DNA of 20,132 bases, taken from the IMG/VR virus record IMGVR_UViG_3300027983_000150, positions 1 to 20,132 of that record; one strand, given 5' to 3'. The translations under genes and the position numbers were made by a program. Positions 1,638 through 6,982 of this stretch are shown here, one piece after another (the stretch's first letter is position 1; each line of letters begins with the position of its first letter). This DNA is from a virus. The notes beneath the pieces were generated by a model that saw nothing but the letters and a program-made list of their open reading frames with translations, did not search any database and was not told where the DNA came from.

Positions 1638-1958
1638 ATGGCAAATAATGAAAACTTAAAAAAGGCACGTGGTTTTGATGTAAACCCGCAGAACATAAAC
1701 CGAAAAGGAGCACCCAAAACAAAGATGCTGAAAGATGTATTAATGGCTGAATTGCAGACCGAAAGTAACGGAGTTGATAAATTAACGGCTATTATAAATA
1801 AACTCACTACAATGGCAGTAAAAGGCGATATGAATGCAATTAAAGAAGTATTGGATAGGTATGCAGGAAAATCAGGACAGGCGATTGATATCACAACCAA
1901 CGGAAAAGACGTAGCACCAACGATTTTATTTAAGGATTTTAAAGAAGATGCCGATTGA
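1638..1958 (+). CDS. Putative terminase small subunit (DUF5681-like)
   Basis: The protein has 106 residues. A basic N-terminal NRKGAPKTK stretch (21-29) is followed by a helical region and then the pattern KGDMNAIKEVLDRYAGKSGQ (62-81). This combination of a GxPK-type basic start and GD-x-x-A-(3)-LDR-x-x-GK-x-x-Q is familiar from small phage proteins encoded just before the large terminase (DUF5681-like). Position supports a DNA-recognition role in packaging: its last 11 nt overlap the large-terminase start. No classical helix-turn-helix is obvious. It could alternatively be a small accessory packaging protein, with the true small subunit elsewhere. Confidence 0.65.
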   Translation: MANNENLKKARGFDVNPQNINRKGAPKTKMLKDVLMAELQTESNGVDKLTAIINKLTTMAVKGDMNAIKEVLDRYAGKSGQAIDITTNGKDVAPTILFKDFKEDAD

Positions 1959-3219
1959 AATATCTAGTAAATTCAAGCCTTTATTCAGGCTATTAGACGA
2001 CAACTATTTGCCTGAGGTTGATACCGTTATTTTAACAGGAGGGAGAGCTTCTAGTAAGTCTTTTAATGTAGCTTTATTAAATCTAATCGGGACAGTAGAG
2101 AATCATTGGAAAGTACTTTATTCGAGGTTTACAAATACATCTATTGGAGACAGTATAAAGTCGGAGGTTTCGGACAAGATAGAGTTGTTGAATTATGAAA
2201 ATAAAGTTGACGATATCCAAAATAGAATAACGGCTAAAAATGGTGAAGGCTCAATTTCGTTTAAGGGAATAAAAACAGGGTCAAAAGGTCAAACAGCTAA
2301 TCTAAAATCATTACAAGGCTTCAATTGCTTTGTAGTTGATGAAGCCGATGAGATACCTAGTTTTGAAACATTTAAGAAAGTGTTTTATTCGATACGATCA
2401 ATCGATAGACGTAATATTTCTATACTTATTTTAAATCCAACACTTAAAACACATTGGATATTTAAACATTTTTTCAGTAAAAAAAACATTCCAGAGGGTT
2501 TCTGTGGCGTCGTTGATAACGTGCTATACATACATTCAAGCTATTTGGATGTCAACCCTGAATTTATACCCGACAATATACGAAGAGATTACGAAAGACT
2601 AAAGGAAGAAAACCCTAGCGAATATAAGAATGTTGTATTAGGGGGGTGGATTTCAGAGCAGGAAGACGCGTTATTTAAGAAGCGTGAACTACAATTTTAT
2701 ACAAAGGATAAGGTAGATTTTAAGGATGCAATAGGTAAATTATCATTCATTGATGTAGCTGATGAGGGCAATGACTTTCATAGCGTACCAATTGGGATAC
2801 TGAAAGACGATAAAATATACATTGATGATGTATTATTCACTAAGCTAGGAACTACGGTAAACGTTCAAATGACAGCCGATATACTAAACCTACATAAACC
2901 CGAATTTGTACGTATAGAGTCTAACTTTGGAGGCTCAATGTATTCAAGTCTATTGACTCCTTTATTGAATGGTAACATTACACCGCTATCAATTAGAGCC
3001 ACGACAAATAAGCATAGTAGAATAATGCAGTTATCAGGATTTATTAAGCGTTATTGTGTTTTCCGTGAGGATTATGAAATTGGAAGCGATTACGATAAAT
3101 TTATGACTAATATATTTGAATATACGCAAGACGGCAAATCAGAACATGACGATGCGCCCGATAGTTTGGAGGGGCTATGTAGCATGGCTCGATCATTCCA
3201 TAGTCATTTATGGGGATAA
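1948..3219 (+). CDS. terL: Phage terminase large subunit (ATPase/nuclease)
   Basis: This 423-residue protein is the DNA-packaging motor. The N-terminal ATPase has a Walker A-type loop LTGGRASSKS (29-38), the variant typical of PBSX/Terminase_3 enzymes, and a Walker B FVVDEADE (128-135). A coupling-motif-like SILILNPT lies near 158-165. The C-terminal RNase H-like nuclease domain begins near SFIDVADEG (266-274; D269 and D272 are metal-ligand candidates), continues with VRIESNFGGS (321-330; E324) and ends with HDDAPDSLEGL (400-410; D402/D405). Length and domain order are normal, so it should be functional. The start overlaps the small-subunit gene by 11 nt. It is the last plus-strand gene before the inverted portal, and its stop codon lies in the T-tract of the portal's terminator. 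Confidence 0.95.
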   Translation: MPIEISSKFKPLFRLLDDNYLPEVDTVILTGGRASSKSFNVALLNLIGTVENHWKVLYSRFTNTSIGDSIKSEVSDKIELLNYENKVDDIQNRITAKNGEGSISFKGIKTGSKGQTANLKSLQGFNCFVVDEADEIPSFETFKKVFYSIRSIDRRNISILILNPTLKTHWIFKHFFSKKNIPEGFCGVVDNVLYIHSSYLDVNPEFIPDNIRRDYERLKEENPSEYKNVVLGGWISEQEDALFKKRELQFYTKDKVDFKDAIGKLSFIDVADEGNDFHSVPIGILKDDKIYIDDVLFTKLGTTVNVQMTADILNLHKPEFVRIESNFGGSMYSSLLTPLLNGNITPLSIRATTNKHSRIMQLSGFIKRYCVFREDYEIGSDYDKFMTNIFEYTQDGKSEHDDAPDSLEGLCSMARSFHSHLWG

Positions 3220-3243
3220 AAAAAGCGCACCGTTTAAGTGCGC
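3218..3243 (-). terminator. Rho-independent terminator of the portal gene
   Basis: Read on the minus strand, 20 nt after the portal stop there is a perfect 6-bp stem GCGCAC/GTGCGC (3243-3238 pairing with 3230-3225) with a 7-nt loop, followed directly by seven T residues (complement of 3224-3218). This is a strong intrinsic-terminator layout for leftward transcription. In the rightward direction the hairpin is followed by CAAAAGTATATTTTT, so it could stop terminase transcripts only weakly. The T-tract overlaps the terminase stop codon (3217-3219). Confidence 0.85.
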
Positions 3244-3263
3244 CAAAAGTATATTTTTACAGT

Positions 3264-4472
3264 TTATAGTTGTATAATATCTTTTAGTTCTTGCGCTGAA
3301 TAAGTGCCTAATTGGCTCAATATATTCATTGCATTAGCTTTTTTCTCTAGTATTTCCGCTTTCTCCTTTTGATTTTGCTGTAAGATTGGAATATGTGAGT
3401 AGTCTAATTCTAAAAATTCGCCTTTCTTTTCAAGACCGAATAACGTTGTGCGGTTCATAGCTAACTCTTCAGCTTCAGGAATAATTGTAGATTGATACGC
3501 TTGACGTAAGCCTTCTGCCATGTTCTCGAAAGTTGCGCCTTTATCTTTACTAAACAGATTGTCGTTCAACCCGTATTGATCTATGATTGTTTTGAAATTG
3601 ATATCAACTTCTTCAAATAACATTAAATCTTTTGTTGGGTATGTCATAGGCTGCCAATTTAATGACGAGTTTGTCATGATGACCTGACTTTGTGTATCAC
3701 CCATTCCGTATGCACGTTGATATTCTCTCTCTAGTCTTAATCTTTCAGTTTCATTCAATGGAATAGCTCCAGAACTATCTTTGGCATTATTCGATAATAT
3801 ACCCAGCGCACCTTTTTTTGTGATTATTACATTTCTAAAACCATAAGCAGCACGGATGTTTGATATAGGCATGTGTAACGGTATCATTGGGCTTTCACCT
3901 TTCACGGGATTTTTACCGTTCACAACTCGTGTATGATTAATATCTTTCGTTTCAAACGTTTCAATATCAATTCCTGTGCGTAATTTGTACCCTAAAATAA
4001 TATCGTCAATCTTCGTTTGCTTGTATATTTTTCCCGAAATAATCATTTCCATTTGGGCAGGTGGTAAATTATTCAGAGTTGAAGGGTCGGCAGTAGCGAA
4101 AGCACGATTAACATATTCGTAATTATTGCCATAAATACACTTATTTTCATTCCATTGTCTTATAAGGTCGTTGCCTTTCATTAGTGGATTAGGATTTTCT
4201 AATAGTTGAACATAAGGACTATTCTCTATTTCTTTACCTAATTTATTATAATGCTTCCATTGACCACTAGCTAATAAATAACCTCTTCTTTGAATGACTG
4301 CGTACAATTGCGGAGTGGTCAAATAAATATCATAAGCGTCCCACGTGTCGGGGGCTAGGAATTCAGGTTTTCCATTAAGGATTTGCGACATGTGATTTAA
4401 CGATGGAGTAGATTGATAAGCGTCTGTTCCTGTTAATAGTCGTGTAATAAAAGCTAAGGGATGAAATTGCAT
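3264..4472 (-). CDS. Phage portal protein (HK97/SPP1-like), on the opposite strand
   Basis: The 402-residue protein forms the ring at the capsid vertex through which DNA passes. Portal-like features include an N-terminal region with YLTTPQLYAVIQRRGYLLASG (50-70), the segment PLHMPISNIRAAYGFRN (198-214) followed by a helix, and a C-terminal DINFKTIIDQYGLNDNLFS...ATFENMAEGLRQAYQSTIIP region (290-332), the equivalent of the portal stem and crown stretch with its conserved 'F-x-N-x-x-E' and 'T-I-x-P' elements. A Gln/Lys-rich helical tail follows (364-402). The length is typical. I chose the ATG at 4472; a TTG at 4490 would add six residues but overlaps the promoter box. Uniquely in this window it is read leftwards, between the terminase and the protease. 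It has its own terminator and promoter-like region, and the frame is intact with the same base composition as its neighbours, so it does not look decayed. Confidence 0.88.
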   Translation of the reverse strand: MQFHPLAFITRLLTGTDAYQSTPSLNHMSQILNGKPEFLAPDTWDAYDIYLTTPQLYAVIQRRGYLLASGQWKHYNKLGKEIENSPYVQLLENPNPLMKGNDLIRQWNENKCIYGNNYEYVNRAFATADPSTLNNLPPAQMEMIISGKIYKQTKIDDIILGYKLRTGIDIETFETKDINHTRVVNGKNPVKGESPMIPLHMPISNIRAAYGFRNVIITKKGALGILSNNAKDSSGAIPLNETERLRLEREYQRAYGMGDTQSQVIMTNSSLNWQPMTYPTKDLMLFEEVDINFKTIIDQYGLNDNLFSKDKGATFENMAEGLRQAYQSTIIPEAEELAMNRTTLFGLEKKGEFLELDYSHIPILQQNQKEKAEILEKKANAMNILSQLGTYSAQELKDIIQL

Positions 4473-4487
4473 ATTATTTTTTTTTAA

Positions 4488-4495
4488 CAAATATA
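4488..4495 (-). promoter_or_regulatory. Putative leftward promoter -7 box for the portal gene
   Basis: The minus strand reads TATATTTG, an exact match to the Bacteroidota sigma consensus TAnnTTTG, 15 nt before the portal ATG at 4472. Transcription would start within or next to a run of nine A residues (complement of 4477-4485), giving a very short A-rich leader. I see no TTG -33 element at the usual distance, so the promoter may be weak or activator-dependent. Confidence 0.55.
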
Positions 4496-4496
4496 A

Positions 4497-4525
4497 TTGT
4501 ATTTAACATAATAACATTATATTTG
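4497..4525 (+). promoter_or_regulatory. Putative rightward promoter for the protease-capsid operon
   Basis: TTG at 4497-4499 and TATATTTG at 4518-4525 are separated by 18 nt. This matches the Flavobacterium-type consensus (TTG, 17-23 nt, TAnnTTTG). It would start transcription near 4531 and drive the 32-residue peptide, protease and capsid genes. It is needed by context, because the inverted portal gene separates these genes from the terminase operon. The first operator-like repeat lies inside its spacer. Confidence 0.6.
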
Positions 4526-4565
4526 ATACTTATTATGTTAAATAGCTTAGTATTATGTTAAATAG
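4500..4565. repeat. Three-copy operator-like repeat between divergent portal and protease units
   Basis: The 14-bp sequence TATTATGTTAAATA occurs three times: inverted at 4500-4513 (as TATTTAACATAATA), and direct at 4531-4544 and 4551-4564. The two direct copies extend to 15 bp with a final G and start exactly 20 bp apart, about two helical turns. A degraded further half (TAACATTA, 4512-4519) adjoins the inverted copy. Copy 1 is between the rightward -33 and -7 boxes, copy 2 is at the expected start of transcription, and copy 3 contains the ATG of the small peptide. A repressor or late activator binding here could control both strands. Confidence 0.6.
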
Positions 4566-4653
4566 AACTGAAAAATTAACGCCAGAAGAGATTAAAAAGT
4601 TGCGTAAAATCAAGACAAAACAAGTGAAAGACCAAATTATAATTGTAAAATAA
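4555..4653 (+). CDS. 32-residue basic peptide upstream of the prohead protease
   Basis: A short frame starts at the ATG inside the third repeat copy and encodes 32 residues, MLNRTEKLTPEEIKKLRKIK and then TKQVKDQIIIVK. It is Lys-rich, with a predicted helix at about residues 9-24. The stop overlaps the protease start as TAATG, an arrangement seen at another junction in this window, which argues for real translation and coupling. I do not recognise a family. It might be a small scaffold or leader peptide, or only a ribosome-loading device for the protease. Confidence is limited by its length. Confidence 0.5.
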   Translation: MLNRTEKLTPEEIKKLRKIKTKQVKDQIIIVK

Positions 4654-5474
4654 TGGAGATTCCAAATTTTGAAACTATAAAAGAAACGATTGATTTTGTC
4701 GTTGCTAATAAATCAGCGATTGCAGCGAGTAAAAAGATGCAAACAAAATGCACTGATTCAACGATGTACCAACCGACAATCGAAACACTAGACACTACTA
4801 AAGCAGCAGACGGATATACAGATAGAAATGTCATTAATGCGAAAGTCGCTATCAATACAACTAACATATTGGACAGTCATGGCGACGTCCACATTGATGG
4901 AATATGGAATAAAACGGTAAAGGAGCAAAAGAACGTGTATCTATTAGAGGAACACGTTATGAGTTTTCGCACTATTATTTCAGATAAAGTTGTTGCTAGT
5001 GTTCAAAATGTTAGTTGGAAAGAACTAGGAGTGAAAGCGGAAGGTATGACACAGGCTCTTATTTTTGATGCTGAATTGAAAAGAGATCGTAATGCTTATA
5101 TGTTTGGAGAATATGAGAAAGGACACGTAAAAAATCACAGCGTAGGAATGAGGTACTCTAAATTAGAACTTGCCGTTAACTCGATAGATTATCCAAAAGA
5201 AAAGGCTATTTGGGATAAACACATTGATAGTATTGTGAACCGAAAAGATGCTGAAAATGTAGGTCATTTTTGGGCGGTTTATGAAGCTAAAATGATTGAA
5301 GGTTCAGCCGTTCCAATTGGTTCAAACGTTGCAACTCCGACATTATCCACAGAAATTAAAAACATTGAGCCGTCAGCAGACACTCATATAACAGAGCCGT
5401 TGCAAGACACTCAAACAAATACAACTGTTCCAAAGGATGGAAAACAGTATTTTATTAACCTCTTAATTAAATAA
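4653..5474 (+). CDS. Prohead (capsid maturation) protease, HK97 S78-like
   Basis: The 273-residue protein resembles the herpesvirus/HK97-type serine protease that trims the capsid protein and scaffold inside the procapsid. The core starts with AKVAINTTNILDSHGDVH (63-80, the 'T-x-x-x-D-x-x-G-D' region). It then has a catalytic His candidate in YLLEEH (H101), a nucleophile candidate in NHSVGM (S163) and the acidic EGSAVPIGSN element (E216), equivalent to the 'E-x-S-x-V-P' motif of this family. About 45 residues after that are Thr/Glu-rich and probably disordered. The gene directly precedes the major capsid gene (2-nt gap), as expected. The start is fixed by the TAATG overlap with the small peptide. 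Confidence 0.85.
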   Translation: MEIPNFETIKETIDFVVANKSAIAASKKMQTKCTDSTMYQPTIETLDTTKAADGYTDRNVINAKVAINTTNILDSHGDVHIDGIWNKTVKEQKNVYLLEEHVMSFRTIISDKVVASVQNVSWKELGVKAEGMTQALIFDAELKRDRNAYMFGEYEKGHVKNHSVGMRYSKLELAVNSIDYPKEKAIWDKHIDSIVNRKDAENVGHFWAVYEAKMIEGSAVPIGSNVATPTLSTEIKNIEPSADTHITEPLQDTQTNTTVPKDGKQYFINLLIK

Positions 5475-5476
5475 AA

Positions 5477-6766
5477 ATGAAAGAGAAATTTAATTTGTTC
5501 CTTACAAGTAAAGGAATTACAAATGAGCAGTTTACTGCTATGTCTGCTGATGAAATGGCAGGTGTTTACAATGATTTCAATGATGTGCAAAACGCTGAAA
5601 TGAAGTCATTGATTGATGGAAAAGCGTCTAAAGAAGATATTGACACGGCTATCAACTCGTTGCAAGATTCTCAATTAGAGCAAATGAAAGCGTTGAACGA
5701 AGCGATGAAAGAAATCGGTCTTTCTATTAAAGCTAGTTCAGAGCCAATCAAAGCGACTAGAACAGGAACGTTGCGTGAGGCATTGACAAAGAATCTTGAA
5801 AACTTAAAGAATCTTAAGTCTGACAAAAAAGAAAGTCACCGTGATGCTGAATTCTCAATGGAGATAAAAGCAGTTGGCACAATGTTAGAGTCTGTAAATA
5901 TCTCAGGTGGGAATGTTCCAGTTGAGCAAAGATTGGCAGGTTTAAACACTATTGCATCAAGAAGAATTCGTTTGATGGATTTAGTATCAAGTGGTACGGC
6001 AACTTCTAACATTATCTCATGGGTTTACCAAGCAGGTAAAGAAGGTGCAGCAGGTGGAACAGTTGAAGGTGCTACAAAGAATCAAATTGATTTCGATTTA
6101 GTGGTTGCTTCTCAGGTTATTGTTAAGCGTTCAGCATTTATCAAAGTATCAACTGAAATGTTAGACGATATTGATTTTATCGAAAGTGAAATTAACAATG
6201 AGTTAATGCGCGAATTGATGAAAGATGTTGAACTTACAGCGTATTCAGGAAACGGAACAGCTCCAAATATGAATGGTGTTCATACGGTTGCGACTGCTTT
6301 TGCTGCTGGTGACTTTGCTCTTGCGGTTGATAATGCTAATCAAGTTGATGTACTTGTTGTTGCAGCTAATCAAATAGCAATTGCAGAACAAGAAGAGCCA
6401 AACGCTATCTTAATGCACCCTACTGATGTCGCTAAATTATTAGTTATTAAAGTAAGTGCTTCTGATAAGCGTTATGTTGATCGTTTAGTATTGGTTGCAG
6501 GTCAATTATCATTGGATGGTATCCCAATCATTAAAACTACATTAGTAACAGCAGGAACGTACCTAATAGGTTATTTCCCTCTTGCAACTTTGTATTCTAA
6601 GGGGACTATAACAATTCAGGTTGGTTTAGATGGTAACGATTTTACAAAAAATCTACGTACTATAATCGCTGAATACCGCGGTGCAATGGTTGTTAAGAAT
6701 AACGACAGAACAGCATTTGTCAAAGGTGTTTTCGCTACTAACATGGCAGCATTAGAAACAGCATAA
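5477..6766 (+). CDS. Major capsid protein (HK97 fold) with N-terminal delta domain
   Basis: The 429-residue protein is the shell subunit. Residues 1-85 are charged and helical, rich in Glu, Lys and Gln (QDSQLEQMKALNEAMKEIG), and act as the delta (scaffold-like) domain expected when a protease gene is adjacent. A linker (90-125) is followed by the HK97 core, with the N-arm and E-loop (VPVEQRLAGLNTIASRRIR, 147-165, then SWVYQAGKEGAAGGTVEGATK) and the spine-helix stretch TEMLDDIDFIESEINNELM. The C-terminal part (AEYRGAMVVKNNDRTAFVKG) is typical of the A-domain and P-domain ends in this family. Processing probably occurs near residues 115-135, but the exact site is not readable. A terminator hairpin follows the stop, consistent with separate high-level expression. 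Confidence 0.93.
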   Translation: MKEKFNLFLTSKGITNEQFTAMSADEMAGVYNDFNDVQNAEMKSLIDGKASKEDIDTAINSLQDSQLEQMKALNEAMKEIGLSIKASSEPIKATRTGTLREALTKNLENLKNLKSDKKESHRDAEFSMEIKAVGTMLESVNISGGNVPVEQRLAGLNTIASRRIRLMDLVSSGTATSNIISWVYQAGKEGAAGGTVEGATKNQIDFDLVVASQVIVKRSAFIKVSTEMLDDIDFIESEINNELMRELMKDVELTAYSGNGTAPNMNGVHTVATAFAAGDFALAVDNANQVDVLVVAANQIAIAEQEEPNAILMHPTDVAKLLVIKVSASDKRYVDRLVLVAGQLSLDGIPIIKTTLVTAGTYLIGYFPLATLYSKGTITIQVGLDGNDFTKNLRTIIAEYRGAMVVKNNDRTAFVKGVFATNMAALETA

Positions 6767-6773
6767 TTTTAAC

Positions 6774-6805
6774 GGGGATTGCAATATATCCCCTTAATAT
6801 TTTTT
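6774..6805 (+). terminator. Intrinsic terminator/attenuator after the capsid gene
   Basis: GGGGAT (6774-6779) and ATCCCC (6788-6793) form a perfect 6-bp GC-rich stem with an 8-nt loop, followed by TTAATATTTTTT. It begins 8 nt after the capsid stop and ends just before the next ATG. Partial termination here would give much more capsid mRNA than mRNA for downstream connector and tail genes. Confidence 0.75.
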
Positions 6806-6808
6806 GAA

Positions 6809-6982
6809 ATGGAAAAGGAAATCAAAGCGAAAGCGAAAGTAAAAGCAGAATTAGACCACAACAAAATGTACAACATCAAATCTACTGGCACGGCTTTAAG
6901 CATGCCAAAAGGTGTTGAATATGAAGTTGATGGAAAGTTAGCTGAAATACTAATCAATAGCGGAAAAGCTACTCAAATTTAA
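6809..6982 (+). CDS. Small protein following the capsid gene (57 residues)
   Basis: From the ATG at 6809 the protein is 57 residues, with a Lys/Ala-rich N-terminus (EKEIKAKAKVKAEL) and a compact C-terminal part, MPKGVEYEVDGKLAEILINSGKATQI. The pattern 'V-x-G-x-x-A-x-x-L-I-x-x-G-x-A' recurs in small phage proteins encoded between capsid and connector genes; their exact role is not known to me. An in-frame ATG at 6779 would put the start inside the terminator stem, so I prefer 6809, which follows a T-rich/A-rich leader. Confidence 0.7.
   Translation: MEKEIKAKAKVKAELDHNKMYNIKSTGTALSMPKGVEYEVDGKLAEILINSGKATQI

Follow-up and report, generated by a model that had tools for sequence, protein, structure and literature searches.

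Within the head-gene block of a phage fragment from IMG/VR, the portal gene lies alone on the opposite strand. The head genes of HK97-type phages are commonly regarded as one conserved block read in a single direction, and the balance of portal (the ring for DNA entry into the head) to capsid is important for heads with exactly one portal. Comparison with relatives indicates that the portal gene was flipped long ago and has been stably kept. Probably, a promoter and the portal were inverted together in place, so that a two-way promoter now stands at the junction, where one motif would switch portal and capsid together from separate messages.

The window, by which we mean the whole stretch of DNA analysed, is a 20,132-base IMG/VR virus fragment with a G+C content of 36% that covers a phage head and tail region. 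The portal is its sole convincing minus-strand gene; all remaining long ORFs of that region are on the plus strand. The features at issue are as follows.

1948..3219, plus strand: terminase large subunit (PF04466, E 2.6e-27), convergent with the portal
3224..3244, minus strand: intrinsic terminator of the portal transcript, GGCGCACTTAAACGGTGCGCT plus T tail (RNAfold -12.1 kcal/mol), overlapping the terminase stop codon
3264..4472, minus strand: portal protein, 402 aa, the lone inverted gene
4473..4483, minus strand: putative portal mRNA leader, 11 nt, with +1 at about 4483 placed from F. johnsoniae spacing
4488..4495, minus strand: -7 element TATATTTG of the portal promoter (portal-strand element at 30 of 37 clade loci, 3.7 in shuffles)
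4500..4513, no strand assigned: central motif TATTTAACATAATA, 14 bp, at -30 to -17 of both promoters; recurs at structural-gene promoters of relatives
4518..4525, plus strand: -7 element TATATTTG of the head-operon promoter (head-strand element at 33 of 37 clade loci, 4.5 in shuffles)
4531..4544, minus strand: second motif copy, at about +2 to +15 of the head transcript
4551..4564, minus strand: third motif copy, exact, opposite in orientation to the central one
4555..4653, plus strand: small ORF rich in Lys (32 aa) that opens the head operon and whose stop overlaps the protease start; counterparts in relatives
4653..5474, plus strand: putative head maturation protease, named from position and relatives; no Pfam match
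5477..6766, plus strand: major capsid protein (PF05065, E 3.7e-19)

Upstream of the terminase, two genes (122-814 and 786-1616) match a PHROG methyltransferase (phrog_8156) and phrog_6059, which is labelled queuine tRNA-ribosyltransferase.

The original prediction, made from the window alone, had terminase, protease and capsid running rightwards and an intact portal frame on the other strand. Both points hold: PF04466 and PF05065 fall on the plus strand and PF04860 on the minus strand, and the portal reads open for 402 aa from an ATG at 4472, or 408 aa from a TTG at 4490, to a stop at 3264. The span it gave, 3218-4565, captures a real inverted gene with ends that need moving, as 3218 lies inside the terminase stop codon and 4472, the start conserved in alignment with relatives, is more likely than the TTG to be where translation begins. 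The protein matches Pfam Phage_portal almost end to end (PF04860, E 4.9e-30, profile positions 4-305 of 321) and also matches PHROG portal families. A predicted model of moderate confidence (pLDDT 68.5) has portals as its top Foldseek matches, including those of HK97 (8cez) and a GTA (6toa), with E about 1e-12. Selection on the portal is strongly purifying: dN/dS is 0.05 when it is paired with a relative 96% identical to it and 0.03 in two further pairs, so the gene is a working one.

Comparing gene orientation in related phages had been suggested with that prediction. We gathered loci from IMG/VR by portal and terminase searches and used iterated profiles to place the terminase, portal, protease, capsid and neck genes in them. 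Among 133 single-portal loci, some of which overlap in source contig, the portal opposes all detected head neighbours in 84 and is co-directional with them in 46; mixed orientation occurs in none, and three loci have no detected neighbour. Every close relative (portal identity of about 41% or more, dozens of independent IMG/VR contigs) has the inverted portal, with the single exception of L179, and relatives more distant than this are co-directional. The junctions are thus not assembly joins, and this distribution supports the claim that the inversion is stable.

The phylogeny is nearly as simple. A portal tree of 78 dereplicated rows splits 40 inverted from 38 co-directional portals by one change (SH-aLRT 95). 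When 13 rows are added, the co-directional L179 falls inside the inverted clade and two changes are needed; constraining the inverted rows to one group costs 0.27 log units (AU p 0.49), and a single origin is not rejected. The tree thus suggests one inversion event, perhaps plus one reversal or second origin. L179 itself is a short contig (387-4978) in which terminase, portal, protease and capsid are co-directional and the portal lies beside or inside the inverted clade; it is either the nearest sister or a reversal.

By portal, the cultured relatives are nearly all phages of Flavobacteriia (hosts Polaribacter, Flavobacterium, Cellulophaga, Tenacibaculum and Leeuwenhoekiella), so a Bacteroidota host is likely. 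The phage collections that we searched held no cultured member of the inverted clade. In bacterial genomes a first profile found zero prophage relatives; with a broader profile, four distant portals came up, of which two lie on Bacteroidota contigs. The inverted-portal group is probably a large, so far uncultured clade of phages infecting Bacteroidota.

What was flipped can be read from the neighbours. The nearest cultured phages by portal (Freyavirus of Polaribacter, Muminvirus of Flavobacterium and Tenacibaculum phage JQ, about 23–32% identity) share the gene order of the window, terminase, portal, small ORF, protease and capsid, down to a short ORF overlapping the protease start. Unlike the window, they keep their portal co-directional, with one direction throughout; the portal of Leeuwenhoekiella phage Arctus_1 is co-directional too. 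The small ORF (22–46 aa, lysine-rich, its stop over the protease start) is present in about 31 of 38 inverted loci, and the comparable ORFs of the three cultured groups sit in the same place, a homology judged by eye as these ORFs are too short for profiles. The ORF at 4555-4653, with its conserved tail resembling (E/Q)IVKK, recurs at this place in inverted and co-directional phages. Since the small ORF keeps to the protease whichever way the portal points, we place one breakpoint between that ORF and the portal and the second between terminase and portal. In lineages with insertions between terminase and portal, all the inserted genes in the gene lists examined are on the plus strand. The portal therefore moved alone, and a cassette carrying further genes with it is ruled out.

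Several lineages (L150, L151, L153, L162, L169 and L174) have gained 1–5 kb where terminase and portal converge, which makes this junction a hot spot for insertion. The inserts include long proteins beginning MVYKVYKRGNY or MAYKVYAKGNY, always on the plus strand in the lists examined. Four loci (L042, L044, L047 and L152) carry a plus-strand terminase-like ORF of the MxATIVFxK type that the window-derived profile missed; in some members of the inverted clade the terminase seems to have been exchanged while the portal stayed inverted.

The divergent promoter-like region proposed in front of the portal is real, and it is of the Bacteroidota type rather than sigma-70. Matches to a sigma-70 promoter are near chance (21 vs 15.6), and we rejected that reading because the Bacteroidota element accounts for the region. 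The window's portal/head junction carries TAnnTTTG on both strands, at 4495-4488 (minus) and 4518-4525 (plus). Both copies are the same perfect octamer, TATATTTG, which matches on each strand the TAHHTTTG -7 element of Bacteroidota sigma-ABfr promoters. In F. johnsoniae this element spans -12 to -5 (PMC6847099); with this spacing, transcription is predicted to start at about 4483 on the minus strand and 4530 on the plus strand. A divergent -7 pair, spaced mostly 29–31 bp, is found in 25 of 37 dereplicated inverted loci, against 0.2 (sd 0.4) expected from the dinucleotide shuffles used for all -7 counts; the strict pair is missing in the other 12. The likeness to Bacteroidota housekeeping promoters (TTTG / TAHHTTTG) is exact for the -7 element and stops there: the -33 TTTG is absent from its expected position in the window, where the motif fills the spacer, and the usual upstream TTG is almost absent across the clade, which has it at 0 of 30 portal promoters and at 3 of 33 head promoters. 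The Bacteroidota -33 TTTG element is reported not to be essential for expression (PMC2483708).

Co-directional relatives also have a promoter of this kind. TAnnTTTG lies upstream of the portal in 26 of 38 of them, against 3.6 (sd 1.7) expected, typically 23–31 bases before the ATG; no promoter was found before the portal of L179. The private portal promoter therefore predates the inversion, and what is new in the inverted clade would be that this promoter is paired with one for the head operon.

Between the two -7 elements, four bases from each and mirror-image for both strands, sits the 14-bp motif TATTTAACATAATA. Allowing up to two mismatches, the window holds no further copies beyond those at 4500, 4531 and 4551. 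Several relatives carry the motif in the equivalent place, although their portals share only about 41–51% identity with that of the window. A scan of all IMG/VR for the exact two-way element returned 17 contigs: in 13 it lies between an inverted portal and a protease, in two it is cut by contig ends beside such genes, and in two, from one phage, it lies elsewhere. In one relative, G004, the motif precedes -7 elements at the portal/head promoter and also at the promoters of two genes in the tail region (20435 and 29388), while TAHHTTTG sites before other genes lack it. Other carriers have a second copy 34–36 bases on and another about 4.8 kb downstream; in L196 this last copy follows a terminator and has no strict -7 element adjacent.

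Most likely, a phage regulator of structural-gene promoters binds at the motif, and the positions of the copies, in the spacer and just past the start site, are as well suited to repression as to activation. The late promoters of P2-like phages are under an Ogr-type activator; here, a scan of a few genes of one relative identified no regulator, and the window is itself a 20-kb fragment. G004 has small HTH proteins that are candidates (a weak HTH_3 match at 6713-6919). The exact motif occurs in a minority of lineages; the majority have the divergent -7 pair without a recognisable shared motif. A search for a clade-wide repeat motif found none, and only 5 of 37 intergenic regions exceed shuffles. 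In L082, L171 and L174 the portal-protease gap contains repeats of other motifs (GAACGGTAATATTTAT; (A/G)ACGGTC) close to the start of the head transcript, which are perhaps lineage-specific operators. In another phage group, with a co-directional portal, the 14-bp motif stands before a TATCTTTG element in the terminase-portal gap (L211, 10896-10921; L210, 284-309), as if the same promoter type drove the portal there too.

At the other end of the portal, the T-tailed terminator that had been described is indeed present, at 3244-3224, although it is not general. A strict scan found a portal-direction terminator in 12 of 40 inverted loci, so we reject it as a conserved component and leave it, as a local feature, outside the definition of the arrangement. 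Several lineages have terminase and portal genes whose stop codons overlap by at least 4 bases.

We propose the following history. The ancestor would have had the usual head block of terminase, portal, small ORF, protease and capsid, all pointing the same way, and a TAnnTTTG promoter immediately ahead of the portal. Because co-directional relatives have a Bacteroidota-type promoter at this place, the likely event is an in-place inversion of a segment made up of that promoter and the portal gene only. The portal would then face the terminase, with its promoter lying between it and the small ORF that heads the capsid operon. From the resulting two-way promoter, one -7 element would drive the portal leftwards and the other the small ORF, protease and capsid rightwards. 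In the window phage the central 14-bp motif would serve both promoters, with extra copies near the head start site, and a regulator bound there could time portal and capsid together from separate messages; the portal message would carry one gene, preceded by an 11-nt leader and ended by a terminator of its own. No relative shows an intermediate of such a flip. The symmetric shared element favours joint timing of the portal with the capsid operon. The portal is thus probably a separate transcription unit timed with that operon, so of the separate control first proposed, the separate transcripts, with their own promoter and terminator, stand, whereas the shared symmetric motif argues against independent timing. 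The wider claim, that a widespread uncultured clade has replaced the usual head operon with a symmetric two-way promoter and a single shared operator for opposite-strand portal and capsid messages, is tentative, and we lean against it. If it is true, one regulator at one site would set when portal and capsid are made, and possibly in what ratio.

Other explanations of the inversion deserve weighing. An assembly artefact or an active inversion switch could be suspected of a single contig such as the window. The same portal-protease arrangement recurs in contigs from other metagenomes with portals 96–99% identical to that of the window (L001, L002 and L019), and the same junctions throughout the clade, which for practical purposes excludes an assembly error, as the original prediction had leaned. 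A switch fares no better: as that prediction also held, no matching inverted repeats join the two ends of the portal segment. None exceeds 8 bp (the longest match is 8 bp of an A/T run), so the mechanism is not visible as repeats, and no close relative carries the portal in the other orientation, L179 being the exception for the clade as a whole. We regard either possibility as vanishingly small. It is also improbable, though less extremely so, that read-through from the terminase operon across the portal damps its expression until late infection, through antisense RNA or collision. The genes are convergent and a terminase-direction intrinsic terminator is found in just 1 of 40 inverted loci, so read-through could occur; such damping requires overlapping transcription, however, and many lineages have 1–5 kb of genes between terminase and portal.

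The original prediction favoured dosage: separate control could hold the portal at a low copy number relative to capsid. A head needs only about 12 portal subunits, and a lone portal gene with its own promoter and, in the window, its own terminator would suit production in small fixed amounts through a weaker promoter or weaker translation, the motif being incidental. Yet the two -7 elements of the window are identical and symmetric about one motif, and the DNA gives no sign of a weaker portal promoter. Moreover, co-directional relatives already have a promoter before the portal, so separate control needed no flip, and the terminator is not conserved. We consider it unlikely that dosage is what has kept the inversion, although a lower dose of portal than of capsid is possible. 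A stronger candidate is a neutral inversion, fixed once and then locked in by the dependence of the head operon on the new junction promoter; a capsid operon relying on that promoter would make the flip hard to undo. One or two changes on the tree with almost no reversal, and no visible function unique to the inversion, are what such an accident would leave behind, but the symmetric shared motif and the conserved 29–31 bp spacing suggest a selected arrangement. As a full account we think it quite possible, short of probable. Lock-in and function are compatible, and lock-in is a serious partner explanation to the two-way promoter that we prefer.

There is a partial precedent in the P2-like phages, whose late operons P-Q and O-N-M-L diverge, as in the gene tables of three P2-like Burkholderia phages (PMC3091744). 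Their portal (Q) is likewise on the opposite strand to scaffold/protease (O) and capsid (N), and the two sets of genes read away from a short intergenic region. In P2-like phages, however, the terminase ATPase gene is flipped with the portal and precedes it, whereas the large terminase subunit of the window is on the opposite strand and convergent with the portal; the window portal is also of the HK97/PF04860 type and its promoters are of the Bacteroidota type. In the literature that we searched, with limited coverage, we found no report of a lone inverted portal within an HK97-type head block.

The arrangement is thus a natural, old and stable exception to the co-directional head block, confined essentially to one clade, in which the portal alone is on the other strand. 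It offers a comparison, made by nature, for work on the control of portal supply. Moreover, the promoter element is recognisable, and may provide a route to the structural-gene regulon of these uncultured phages.
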